From the NCBI GenBank assembly GCA_017432325.1, contig JAFRJJ010000054.1, forward strand, positions 1 to 64,000: a stretch of 64,000 nt of DNA. Reading direction: 5' to 3'. The notes beneath the pieces were generated by a model. That model worked only from the letters and a program-made list of their open reading frames with translations, did no database searches and was not told where the DNA came from. This document shows positions 59,531-64,000 of the stretch, piece after piece. The stretch is from Solobacterium sp. Lineage in GTDB: Bacteria; Bacillota_I; Bacilli_A; Erysipelotrichales; Erysipelotrichaceae. Positions within the stretch are counted from its first letter, which is position 1, and the number at the start of each line of letters is the position of its first letter. The position numbers were made by a program, and so were the translations under genes.

Positions 59531-60595
59531 CTAATAAAGATCAAACTCATTGACCTGCTGTACATATTCTTCAAAACGAGGAAGCGCAAATATCACCTCT
59601 CCGTACTTTACAGCTTTTACAATTCCTCTTTTGATCAATCTGTCACGATATACAGAAAAAGTTTTATCATCCATTTGAGATTGTGCTTTGATTTCTGCTG
59701 TTTGTTTGATGTTTCCTTTTACCTTTGACATGGCTATCAGGAATTCTCTGTCATTTCCTGACGATTCCTGCCAGATCTTTTCGTAAACGTAGCTCTGTAA
59801 ATAAGAGTCATAGCGATCCATCAGCTTGGAAAGAGATTCTGACGGGTTTTCAAACACAAGATATCCCAGCACCTGATATGCAAATGGATAGCCCCGTGTC
59901 AGTTCTGCCATTTTCCTGGCTTGATCCGAGGGGACAGATAATATATTCTGATAACTTTTTTTGATCAGGCTCAGATTCAAAGATTCAAGATCGATCCTTT
60001 TTGCACGCAGCAGAAATGTCAGTGATTTATCATTCTGAATAAATGTGACATTCTGAAATAATCCTGTCATCAGCAGGAAGACAGGGTATTCATTTCTCAG
60101 CATTCCCTGAAAAGATAAAGCAAACTGTCTCATATATGATGAGTTGGCAGCTTCATCAATCGTAATCAGTATCTTTTTTCCTTTGGATAAAGCTGTTTGC
60201 AGAAGCTTGTCATTGAATAACTCAATATCAAATACAGGATCATCCTTTTTTTCCATTGAAAGAACAGAAACACCAAATGCAGAAGGATTGATGGCTTTAA
60301 GTTCGTATTTATTTTTGATTAATGCATCATACAATCTGGCTCCGAATGCATCAAGCAGATCTCTGGATGGATTCAGATCGATTACGATCCATTCATCCAG
60401 TTTTTTAAAATGATTGGCAACAGCAGTCATAGTAACCGTCTTTCCCATTCCCCGTACACCTGTAAGGATATAAGTGTTTGTAAAAGGACTGTCGCTGGAA
60501 AAACAGTCGATAATCTCACTGGAAACGATCTCTCTGGAAATGTAATTCTCCGGTTTTCTGCCGAATGAAATGGTAAAAGGATTAGCAGTCATCAT
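59531..60595 (-). CDS. AAA ATPase, ORC/Cdc6-like family
   Basis: A 354-residue P-loop ATPase. Walker A GVRGMGKT (45-52), Walker B KILITIDEA (about 140-148), sensor-type regions and a C-terminal winged-helix part (about 275-350: QTAEIKAQSQMDDKTFSVYRDRL is helix-turn-helix-like). Unlike the AAA ATPase at 29327, it has no nuclease-like C-terminus. Such stand-alone ATPases are frequent in Firmicutes and archaea and remain uncharacterised. GGAGG lies before the ATGs at 60595 and 60592. Promoter repeats (60621-60705) suggest autoregulation by the winged helix. AT-richer than its neighbours. Confidence 0.82.
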   Translation of the reverse strand: MMTANPFTISFGRKPENYISREIVSSEIIDCFSSDSPFTNTYILTGVRGMGKTVTMTAVANHFKKLDEWIVIDLNPSRDLLDAFGARLYDALIKNKYELKAINPSAFGVSVLSMEKKDDPVFDIELFNDKLLQTALSKGKKILITIDEAANSSYMRQFALSFQGMLRNEYPVFLLMTGLFQNVTFIQNDKSLTFLLRAKRIDLESLNLSLIKKSYQNILSVPSDQARKMAELTRGYPFAYQVLGYLVFENPSESLSKLMDRYDSYLQSYVYEKIWQESSGNDREFLIAMSKVKGNIKQTAEIKAQSQMDDKTFSVYRDRLIKRGIVKAVKYGEVIFALPRFEEYVQQVNEFDLY

Positions 60596-60620
60596 GATCA
60601 CCTCCCTACTGAAATAGTAC

Positions 60621-60881: not shown

Positions 60882-61856
60882 ATGGATCATAGAAAATTTG
60901 ACGTTGTGTGTGCGGGCATTGCGACCTGGGACACACTTTTTACCGGTGTCGACCGTGACCTGATGTCGATCGACGGCATCCTCTCCAAAGGATACTATGC
61001 CTCCAGCGGAGGAGACGCTGTCAACGCGGCAGTCAGTATGTCCAGGCTCGGACTCCGTACAGCAGTCTGTGCTTCCATGGGTGAGGATACATGTGCGGAC
61101 CTGGTCATCGGTGAACTGCAGAAGGCAAGGGTAGATTGCTCTTATCTGCATCAGAGCCCGGATGTCCATACTGCTTCTCCTGTCATCCTGGTGGATCCGG
61201 AGGGAGAACGGCATATCATCCGAGTCCCTGACAACGGCAATCATTTTTTTACGCAGGAAATGGTCAGTGATGAGCTGCTGGAAAACGCCCGTCATCTGCA
61301 TGTCGCAAGCGCGAATGTCCTGAAGAGACTGGACGGGAAACCATTGGGCATTCTGTTTGAACGGGCACACAGACTGGGTTTAACGACATCCATGGACGCA
61401 TCCTATGACAGGGACGGGAAGTGGATGAAGAATATTGAAGACGCCCTGCATAACTGCGACATCTTTATTCCCAGCATGCAGGAGGCATCCTGCTATGCAG
61501 GAAGCACTGATCCCGATGAGATCTGCGCATTCTTCTCACAATTCCCGCTGAAGATCTTCGGGATCAAGCTTGGTGAGAAGGGCGTTATGGTTACCGACTT
61601 CATACAGACCTGGTCCATGCCGACGCTCTACCGGAAAAAGCCGGTCGATACGACCGGAGCAGGAGATGCTTTCCTTGCAGGCTTTGTCAGTGCCTGGCTG
61701 AAGGGTTATGACATTCCTTCTTCGGCTGCTGTAGGAAGCGCCCAGTCCTATTCCGTGCTGTCGGCGATCGGCGCCAACTGTTCGGCAGGCACATGGGAAG
61801 ACGCATTGAAACTGCTGTCGGAGAATCAGATCGTTCTGCGGAAAAGAGAGGACTGA
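60882..61856 (+). CDS. PfkB family carbohydrate kinase
   Basis: A 324-residue ribokinase-type sugar kinase. The N-terminal GGDAVNAAVSMSRLG motif and the C-terminal catalytic DTTGAGDAFLAGF are both present. It phosphorylates a sugar or keto-sugar. Directly followed (seven bases) by a YihQ-family glycosidase and a YihU-type dehydrogenase, it occupies the position of YihV (sulfofructose kinase) of sulfoglycolysis, but kinase specificity is inferred only from neighbours. AGAGGAAG precedes the ATG at 60882; the in-frame start at 60828 lies before the -10 and is unlikely. Confidence 0.9.
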   Translation: MDHRKFDVVCAGIATWDTLFTGVDRDLMSIDGILSKGYYASSGGDAVNAAVSMSRLGLRTAVCASMGEDTCADLVIGELQKARVDCSYLHQSPDVHTASPVILVDPEGERHIIRVPDNGNHFFTQEMVSDELLENARHLHVASANVLKRLDGKPLGILFERAHRLGLTTSMDASYDRDGKWMKNIEDALHNCDIFIPSMQEASCYAGSTDPDEICAFFSQFPLKIFGIKLGEKGVMVTDFIQTWSMPTLYRKKPVDTTGAGDAFLAGFVSAWLKGYDIPSSAAVGSAQSYSVLSAIGANCSAGTWEDALKLLSENQIVLRKRED

Positions 61857-61863
61857 AACGGTT

Positions 61864-63840
61864 ATGGAAGAACTGATCAGACATATGCTGAAAAACATGG
61901 AAATGACGATCGGTTACGGTACGAATCATTTCCGGATGAGCAGGGGAAGCTTTCATTACAGGAAGCTTGTCCGCTGGAGAAGGGACCTTGTCCGTACGAA
62001 CTGTGAACTTACGGAAGACGGCTTTATCCTGACCTTCCGTGATGAAAAAGAAAAGCGTGATTACCACATGGGAGTGACGATCCATGACGGAAGATATGAC
62101 GTTGCGATGCAGGAAGACCCGGGGAAGATCAATCGTTTCTGGGTGCGTCTTCCATGCGGGATCAATGAGCATTTCTACGGATGCGGCGAGACATATTCCA
62201 GATTCGACCTGAAGGGTGAACGTGTCAGGATCTTTGTTGCGGAGCACCAGAATACAAGAAGGATCTCCCGGAAGATCATTCATGACAAAGTGATCGGACA
62301 TGACCCGGAAAAGGATCTGCGGTTCTCCGCCTATGAATCCTATTACGCCCAGCCGACCTTTGTTTCCTCACGCAAATATTACCTGCATGCCGACACGGTA
62401 CGCTATGCGGAGTTTGACTTCCGTAAGGACAGACAGCTGTCCCTGCGTCTGCAGGAACGTCCTGTATTCCATATGGAATCAGGCAGTACATTCCCGGAAG
62501 TCTCTGAAAAGCTCAGCAGGCTGCTGGGTTCATACGGGAAGCTTCCTGAATGGCTGTATGACGGCGTGATCCTGGCGATCCAGGAGGGCTGTGCAGCCGT
62601 TGATGAACGGCTGAATAAAGCATTGGAAGCCGGCGTCAAGGTAAACGGCGTATGGTCACAGGACTGGTGCGGCTGCCGCAGGACAGGCTTCGGCTACCAG
62701 GTCATGTGGAACTGGGAAGCAGATCAGGACCTGTATCCTGACCTCAAGGAAAAGATCAGGGAATGGAACACAAAAGGCGTCAGGTTCCTGGGCTACATCA
62801 ATCCGTTCATGGCAATTGAGAAACCTCTATATCGATACGCAAGCGAACACGGATACTGTGTGAAAAATAAAAAGGGTGAGGACTACATGGTCACCATTAC
62901 GACATTCCCTGCCGCGATGATCGACTTTACCAATCCCGAGGCATACGCATGGTATAAGGACCTGATCAGGAAGAACATGATCGGTATCGGCATGTCGGGA
63001 TGGATGGCTGACTTCGGTGAATACCTGCCGGTGGACTGTGTGCTGTATGAAGGGGATCCCAAAGCCCTGCACAATCAATGGCCTGCCATCTGGGCAAAAA
63101 TGAACCGTGAGGTCATTGAAGAATGCGGAGTCAGGGATGAAGTGTTCTTCTTCATGCGTGCCGGCAATACGGGCAGTGTTGCGGATGCGGCATGTATGTG
63201 GACAGGCGACCAGCATGTCGACTGGTCAAAGGATGACGGACTTCCTTCGGTCATCCCGGCAAGCCTGTCGCTCGGCATGAGCGGTCAGACGATCGTCCAT
63301 TCGGATGCGGGGGGCTATACCACGATCATGCATATGACCAGGTCAAAGGAACTCCTGATGCGCTGGGAGGAGATGAACGCGTTCTCCCCGCTGCTCCGTC
63401 TTCATGAAGGCAACCAGCCTTCAAGGAACGTCCAGTTTGACAGTGATGAAGAACTGCTGGAACACCTGGCACGTCAGTCGAGGATCCATGCGGCATTGAA
63501 GCCTTATCTGCTGAAGCTGGAGGAAGAAGCACAGCAGGGCATCCCGATGATTCGCCCGCTGTTCTACCACTACGACAGCAATTTTGATTATGACAAAGCA
63601 TACATGCTTGGCAGGGATCTGCTTGTGGCGCCTGTCCGGAAACAGGGAAGGACCGACCGGCATGTGGTATTCCCTGACGATGTCTGGGTAGATCTTGCGA
63701 CAGGAAAAGAATACAGGAAAGGAACGTACCTGGTGGAAGCGCCGATGGGCAGGATCCCTGTCTTTTACCGCAAACAGCACTCCCAGCTCGATGATGAAAC
63801 GATCACGCTGCTGAAACAGGAGATCAGCGCATTGAGATAA
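61864..63840 (+). CDS. YihQ-family GH31 alpha-glycosidase
   Basis: A 658-residue glycoside hydrolase of family 31, strongly resembling E. coli sulfoquinovosidase YihQ over the catalytic barrel (shared stretches such as GWMADFGEYLP, FFMRAG-TGS, HSD-GGYTT and LGRDLLVAPV). Nucleophile Asp383 lies in MADFGEY, acid/base Asp449 in GDQHVDW. Of the residues I recall as binding the sulfonated sugar in YihQ (Q262, Q288, R301, W304, Y508), Gln240, Gln266, Trp282 and the GGY Tyr are kept, but the Arg position is Gln279. It has no signal peptide, so it works inside the cell. It is probably an alpha-glycosidase for sulfoquinovosides or a related, uncharged or differently charged glycoside. Confidence 0.92.
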   Translation: MEELIRHMLKNMEMTIGYGTNHFRMSRGSFHYRKLVRWRRDLVRTNCELTEDGFILTFRDEKEKRDYHMGVTIHDGRYDVAMQEDPGKINRFWVRLPCGINEHFYGCGETYSRFDLKGERVRIFVAEHQNTRRISRKIIHDKVIGHDPEKDLRFSAYESYYAQPTFVSSRKYYLHADTVRYAEFDFRKDRQLSLRLQERPVFHMESGSTFPEVSEKLSRLLGSYGKLPEWLYDGVILAIQEGCAAVDERLNKALEAGVKVNGVWSQDWCGCRRTGFGYQVMWNWEADQDLYPDLKEKIREWNTKGVRFLGYINPFMAIEKPLYRYASEHGYCVKNKKGEDYMVTITTFPAAMIDFTNPEAYAWYKDLIRKNMIGIGMSGWMADFGEYLPVDCVLYEGDPKALHNQWPAIWAKMNREVIEECGVRDEVFFFMRAGNTGSVADAACMWTGDQHVDWSKDDGLPSVIPASLSLGMSGQTIVHSDAGGYTTIMHMTRSKELLMRWEEMNAFSPLLRLHEGNQPSRNVQFDSDEELLEHLARQSRIHAALKPYLLKLEEEAQQGIPMIRPLFYHYDSNFDYDKAYMLGRDLLVAPVRKQGRTDRHVVFPDDVWVDLATGKEYRKGTYLVEAPMGRIPVFYRKQHSQLDDETITLLKQEISALR

Positions 63841-63861
63841 ACAAACAGAAAAGAGGAGAAT

Positions 63862-64000
63862 ATGAAAATCGGTTTTATCGGACTAGGCATCATGGGTTCC
63901 GCAATGTGTGCAAACATCATCCGCAAACATGATGACCGTGTATTTGTATTTGACCATGTTCGGGAAAAGACAGACCAGCTTGCCAAGGCAGGCGGCATTG
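63862..64000 (+). CDS. Beta-hydroxyacid dehydrogenase (YihU/GarR type), cut by window end
   Basis: The first 46 residues of an NAD(P)-dependent dehydrogenase. IGFIGLGIMGSAMCANI is the N-terminal Rossmann motif of the 3-hydroxyisobutyrate/6-phosphogluconate dehydrogenase superfamily, which contains 3-sulfolactaldehyde reductase YihU. AGAGGAG precedes the ATG 21 bases after the glycosidase. The rest lies outside the window, so the subfamily cannot be fixed. Confidence 0.85.
   Translation, partial: MKIGFIGLGIMGSAMCANIIRKHDDRVFVFDHVREKTDQLAKAGGI

Follow-up and report, generated by a model that had tools for sequence, protein, structure and literature searches.

Sulfoquinovose is the sulfur sugar of green plants. 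At the end of the DNA analysed here, genes for a sugar kinase, a YihQ-family glycosidase and a dehydrogenase lie in one operon that looks like a route for sulfoquinovose degradation, and in the glycosidase the position of E. coli YihQ Arg301, which we take to be the sulfonate-binding Arg with an ionic contact to the sulfonate, is occupied by Gln279. Does such an enzyme still act on sulfoquinovosides? All solved sulfoquinovosidases have Arg at this site, and its loss may therefore change specificity. A preliminary description of this DNA took the operon for an imitation of sulfoquinovose degradation and suggested that the glycosidase may define a new substrate class, the options being a different 6-substituted glycoside, an unsubstituted one, or sulfonate bound in another way. 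The comparisons presented below make it probable that this is a sulfoglycolysis operon whose GH31 enzyme belongs to a second deep sulfoquinovosidase lineage, with Gln in place of the sulfonate-binding Arg.

The operon and its host

The window, by which we mean the whole stretch of 64,000 nucleotides analysed, covers bases 1 to 64,000 of contig JAFRJJ010000054.1, which runs on to 80,099. The named genomes closest to it belong to Solobacterium and Erysipelotrichaceae and come for the most part from the guts of ruminants, and its GH31 is 97% identical to that of one such close relative, JAILLA010000016; the host is a rumen-type gut bacterium, a Solobacterium-like member of the Erysipelotrichaceae. 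The operon has five genes, of which the window holds only the first three, the third incomplete, and neighbouring genes overlap or are separated by at most 21 bases. The coordinates of the kinase, glycosidase and dehydrogenase hold as first described, and contig and window numbering are the same:

60882..61856, plus strand: PfkB-family sugar kinase, first gene of the operon (Pfam PF00294, 141 bits)
61864..63840, plus strand: YihQ-type GH31 of the Gln lineage, 658 aa, putative sulfoquinovosidase (NCBIfam PRK10426, 741 bits against a cut-off of 553)
63862..64728, plus strand, in the window to 64000: YihU/SftR-type dehydrogenase, cut by the window end (Pfam PF03446 and PF14833)
64722-65402, beyond the window: SftX/DUF4867 (Pfam PF16161, 227 bits)
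65414-66763, beyond the window: SftI-type isomerase (Pfam PF02952)

The last two genes speak against mere imitation. The preliminary description had suggested reading past 64000 for an aldolase, isomerase or transaldolase; an isomerase homologue is there, together with SftX, and the operon, read through 66763, contains no aldolase, transaldolase or transporter gene. DUF4867 has been described in sulfoglycolysis (PMC11968277, PMC9594981), and the best PDB match of the window SftX is 9gyy from B. megaterium (E 1.8e-60). The SftI homologue reaches 383 bits with the NCBIfam SftI model, whose cut-off is 700; SftI proteins from sulfo-transketolase clusters in which the YihQ-like gene has Arg at the site (Arg type) reach 402-408 bits, likewise under the cut-off, which rules out reading a different pathway from the low score. 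The dehydrogenase (168 bits with the YihU model, cut-off 348) shares 62-70% identity with the reductases encoded in Arg-type sulfo-transaldolase clusters and has the same substrate-site residues. Taken together, SftI, SftX and the SftR-type reductase are 58-70% identical to proteins of Arg-type Lachnospiraceae clusters.

Just upstream of the operon, on the minus strand, lies an AAA ATPase (59531-60601) that resembles the defence gene mad8 only weakly (17.6 bits); downstream of the operon, a minus-strand pair at 67172-69085, an RloB-like protein and an AAA ATPase, matches the phage-defence system AbiL (AbiLi 307 bits, AbiLii 79 bits).

Arg and Gln branches of the YihQ family

The closest PDB relative of the window GH31 is YihQ (605 bits), and its AlphaFold model (pLDDT 85.7) has 8r56 (BmSQase) and E. 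coli YihQ as top Foldseek matches (TM 0.89-0.90, 42% identity). Alignment to the E. coli YihQ gene and to homologues places the active-site codons as follows:

62581..62583, plus strand: Gln240 (YihQ Gln262), from the alignment
62659..62661, plus strand: Gln266 (YihQ Gln288), from the alignment
62698..62700, plus strand: Gln279 (YihQ Arg301), from the alignments; Gln in 120/120 Gln-lineage homologues
62707..62709, plus strand: Trp282 (YihQ Trp304), from the alignment
63010..63012, plus strand: Asp383, catalytic nucleophile (YihQ Asp405), invariant in the alignment
63208..63210, plus strand: Asp449, acid/base (YihQ Asp472), invariant in the alignment
63316..63318, plus strand: Tyr485 (YihQ Tyr508), from the alignment

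Both the replacement of Arg301 and the retention of Gln240, Gln266, Trp282 and the later Tyr, as read in the preliminary description, are borne out by this alignment. The window reads QQQWY and does not match the classical sulfonate signature (QQRWY or KERWY, including Arg301, Trp304 and Tyr508); for this reason we place it in a sister lineage outside the classical signature group. His451, two residues past Asp449, is a mark of the Gln lineage. A sequencing error or a single mutation is ruled out by the invariance of Gln in the 120 non-identical homologues. Nor does the alignment with GH31 members, proposed earlier as a check, show a neighbouring Arg that could act as a substitute: in other members of the lineage K, C, E, N or V may stand at the position of Arg273 (YihQ Met295), and the Q2 group lacks Arg272.

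The alignment of non-identical homologues has Gln at the site in 120 sequences and Arg in 29. Frequencies come from samples in which the motif was not used as a probe, and there the two types separate cleanly. The 397 Lachnospiraceae genomes yielded 29 YihQ-like genes, 12 with Arg (932-1023 bits with PRK10426) and 17 with Gln (607-807 bits), one of the 17 being that of the centre genome, itself picked for having Gln; the 30 best-scoring Spirochaetia loci comprised 19 Gln and 11 Arg types. In these two samples the Gln branch is about as common as the Arg branch. Eight further Gln types were found in Oscillospirales, and the sample of the window's phylum held four of each type, the window counted in. 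A search probed with YQVMWNWE, and biased by that choice, returned Gln in 112/112.

In a quick-search GH31 tree made without the columns around the site there is a single change between Arg and Gln, and every characterised enzyme falls on the Arg side. SH-aLRT support in the tree with more groups is 80 for the Gln branch and 98 for the Arg branch; in a preceding tree, which covered fewer groups, both branches stand at 100. The YihQ family divides once, into an Arg branch that holds all solved sulfoquinovosidases and a Gln branch. The fixed differences between them (YihQ numbering) include K300Y in the window lineage, N/S474H beside the acid/base and P/Q153H, and the stretches 147-159 and 366-373 are rewritten. 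These coupled changes exceed the needs of a single-ligand swap, which counts against our preferred explanation.

Oscillospirales also contain remoter YihQ relatives (L250, L253, L255-L257, L259-L268; 403-652 bits) in which the Gln262/Gln288 positions are changed too, with motifs such as HRQYS and RPRYT. No sulfoglycolysis genes were seen near the YihQ relatives in six fetched Oscillospirales regions (L321-L326). A substrate of a truly different kind is more plausible for these remote relatives than for the window GH31.

Genomic context, substrate and the cleavage step

In regions fetched whole, core sulfoglycolysis genes lie within 10 kb of 26/36 Gln-type and 21/27 Arg-type genes, counts that are not rates, the regions being hand-picked with near-duplicates among them. 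Most Gln-type genes of related genomes sit in sulfo-transaldolase or sulfo-transketolase clusters. Those of Lachnospiraceae have the order GH31, GPH symporter, SftT, reductase, SftX, TauE-type exporter, SftI and ROK regulator; those of Spirochaetia are sulfo-transketolase clusters. Some clusters (L219/L220 of genome G805, and L148-L150) combine an Arg type with an ABC importer and a Gln type with a GPH symporter, giving two entry modules into one pathway.

The same pathway stands behind both types. Arg-type cluster L233 and Gln-type cluster L066 are adjacent on the SftI tree and share 90% identity in SftT, 89% in the reductase, 82% in SftX and 83% in SftI, against 39% in GH31: the glycosidase was exchanged and the pathway retained. 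The SftI tree as a whole intermixes Arg- and Gln-type clusters, with at least five type changes as against the one change in the GH31 tree. Every SftT of Gln-type clusters carries WAR, the sulfonate-binding motif of sulfofructose transaldolase (PMC11659671), and the sole aligned sequence that lacks it, from L044, belongs to an ordinary transaldolase encoded away from the cluster. The reductase residues K123, H174 and N175 (YihU numbering) are identical in Arg- and Gln-type clusters, Lys standing at the YihU Arg123 position in both. The positions that we presume to contact the sulfonate in YihU and YihV served only for such cluster-to-cluster comparison.

It could be argued that the GH31 acts on an alpha-glucoside that is neutral, 6-deoxy or uronic, and that the operon merely resembles sulfoquinovose degradation, since the only residue known for an ionic sulfonate contact is lost, and Lys300 with it. 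Some Gln-type genes (L224, L309, L311, L312) also stand alone with a GPH symporter, pathway genes being absent. However, the swapping of one glycosidase type for the other within nearly identical sulfo-transaldolase clusters, the WAR motif in all partner transaldolases, and the SftI homologue and SftX inside the window operon make this reading very unlikely, and the new substrate class proposed in the preliminary description loses its footing on the same evidence. Of the three options offered there, sulfonate binding by other means is the best supported by the sequences compared here.

The Gln type may act on sulfoquinovosides with another aglycone, or on glycosides of a related sulfosugar. 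In its full form, this proposal has the Gln lineage serving another sulfoquinovoside or close sulfosugar glycoside imported by GPH symporters and the Arg lineage serving sulfoquinovosyl glycerol imported by ABC systems, with common downstream enzymes. Within the hand-picked regions, a GPH symporter adjoins 22/36 Gln types and 0/27 Arg types, and an ABC permease adjoins 18/27 Arg types and 5/36 Gln types; the mixed cluster of G805 begins and ends with different modules, one Gln-GPH and one ABC-Arg, and some of the coupled changes fall in loops that would lie outside the sulfonate site. Both types occur together in three sampled Lachnospiraceae genomes and several others, and these genomes, with the GPH linkage, hint at different glycosides. 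Yet most Gln-type genomes have one YihQ-like gene (20/20 of those checked), which must therefore handle whatever is common; Spirochaete Gln types often come with ABC importers; and the Arg-type E. coli YihQ adjoins yihO and yihP, annotated as sulfoquinovose and DHPS transporters, so that the transporter tie is not general. We regard the full proposal as rather unlikely. Different sulfonate binding in the Gln lineage is the best explanation, possibly with another aglycone preference.

The kinase has the ATP-site motif DTTGAGDAF, its best PDB match is YdjH (113 bits), and it is weakly similar to the sulfofructose kinase YihV (28% over 109 aa); judged by these matches it is not a YihV orthologue and is nearer to YdjH-type kinases. 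A PfkB kinase lies immediately upstream of GH31 in 25 loci, and SftT with WAR occurs in 0/25. Lachnospiraceae have the reverse arrangement, SftT present and the kinase absent, and the two were never found together in the examined loci. This split tracks taxonomy and therefore reflects one or few events. SftT was not found in the window cluster or the window genus, where the search for a hidden one yielded only an ordinary transaldolase-like gene of about 81 bits; in the sole PF00923 gene found in the window genome, R and S occupy the first two positions of WAR. Dedicated aldolases (YihT, PF01791; SqiA, PF01116) are absent from the operon. Elsewhere the genome encodes a single class II aldolase, on a different contig, as well as two short proteins of PF01791, in a search without class I FBP aldolase (PF00274) and an assembly about 95% complete, where an aldolase may be missed. 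The gene content suggests a hybrid sulfo-EMP route in the window genus, built on an SftI-type isomerase and a kinase.

In this hybrid route, the GH31 would cleave alpha-sulfoquinovosides by the usual two-Asp retaining mechanism, with Gln279, Trp282 and Tyr485 holding the sulfonate together with further residues specific to the lineage. Sulfoquinovose would be converted to sulfofructose by SftI, perhaps with the aid of SftX, and the PfkB kinase, as a proposed sulfofructose 1-kinase replacing SftT, would yield sulfofructose-1-phosphate. Splitting this product into DHAP and sulfolactaldehyde would fall to an aldolase whose gene lies outside the operon, possibly the single class II FBP aldolase, and the dehydrogenase would reduce sulfolactaldehyde to DHPS. 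We infer every reaction, the mode of sulfonate binding and the kinase and aldolase steps from sequence comparison.

The kinase might instead serve another purpose, sulfolactaldehyde being made in the window genus by an unrecognised transaldolase or aldolase elsewhere. Its closeness to YdjH-type kinases rather than YihV would fit, as would two Erysipelotrichaceae Gln-type clusters (L065, L089) that have neither a PfkB kinase nor SftT nearby. The mutual exclusion of kinase and SftT in the examined loci argues against it, as does the absence of WAR from the sole transaldolase-family gene found in the window genome, and we consider it doubtful. A broader scheme, in which the Gln lineage is specific for a GPH-imported sulfosugar glycoside or conjugate that the Arg lineage does not cleave and feeds a hybrid sulfo-EMP route with a new kinase type and a housekeeping aldolase, seems to us unlikely.

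Relation to known systems

The Gln lineage offers a natural test of whether sulfonate recognition needs an ionic contact. It may also bear on how these enzymes are counted. Rumen YihQ richness has been reported, in a paper that also describes a sulfoquinovose-transcribing Sphaerochaetaceae genome (PMC13219744). One human-gut survey pre-filtered GH31 by a motif drawn from the signature positions of YihQ (PMC8397734); should Arg be obligatory in it, Gln types, about half of YihQ-like genes in our Lachnospiraceae and Spirochaetia samples, would have been missed there. In our literature search, with the main structural papers outside it, none of the papers dealt with a GH31 sulfoquinovosidase of the Gln type, and novelty is not proven.

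The window lineage is a sister clade to all solved GH31 sulfoquinovosidases, those of E. coli (YihQ, 5aed/5oht), B. megaterium (8r56), E. rectale (SftG, 6pnr) and A. tumefaciens (5ohs/5ohy). It shares with them the fold (TM about 0.9), 37-42% identity, both catalytic Asp residues, the QQ-WY frame and the setting in sulfoglycolysis clusters, and differs in Gln for Arg301, Tyr for Lys300, the His after the acid/base and the two rewritten loops. Like the sulfo-SFT/TAL pathway of E. rectale and B. megaterium, the window operon has SftX (DUF4867), together with homologues of SftI and of the SftR-type reductase; unlike it, the cluster and the genus lack a recognised SftT, and a PfkB kinase stands in its place. 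The kinase-based plan, with a PfkB-family kinase, recalls the E. coli sulfo-EMP pathway (yih), and the SftI homologue and SftX recall sulfo-EMP2 (PMC9594981), although the window kinase is neither a YihV orthologue nor of the PfkA family (SqiK) and the operon has no YihT or SqiA. A parallel is found in GH188, where a subset of the family has one sulfonate-site residue changed and sits in sulfoglycolysis-like clusters; unlike the GH31 Gln lineage, GH188 has an unrelated fold and an NAD-dependent mechanism, and makes its contact by a backbone amide (PMC11465081).
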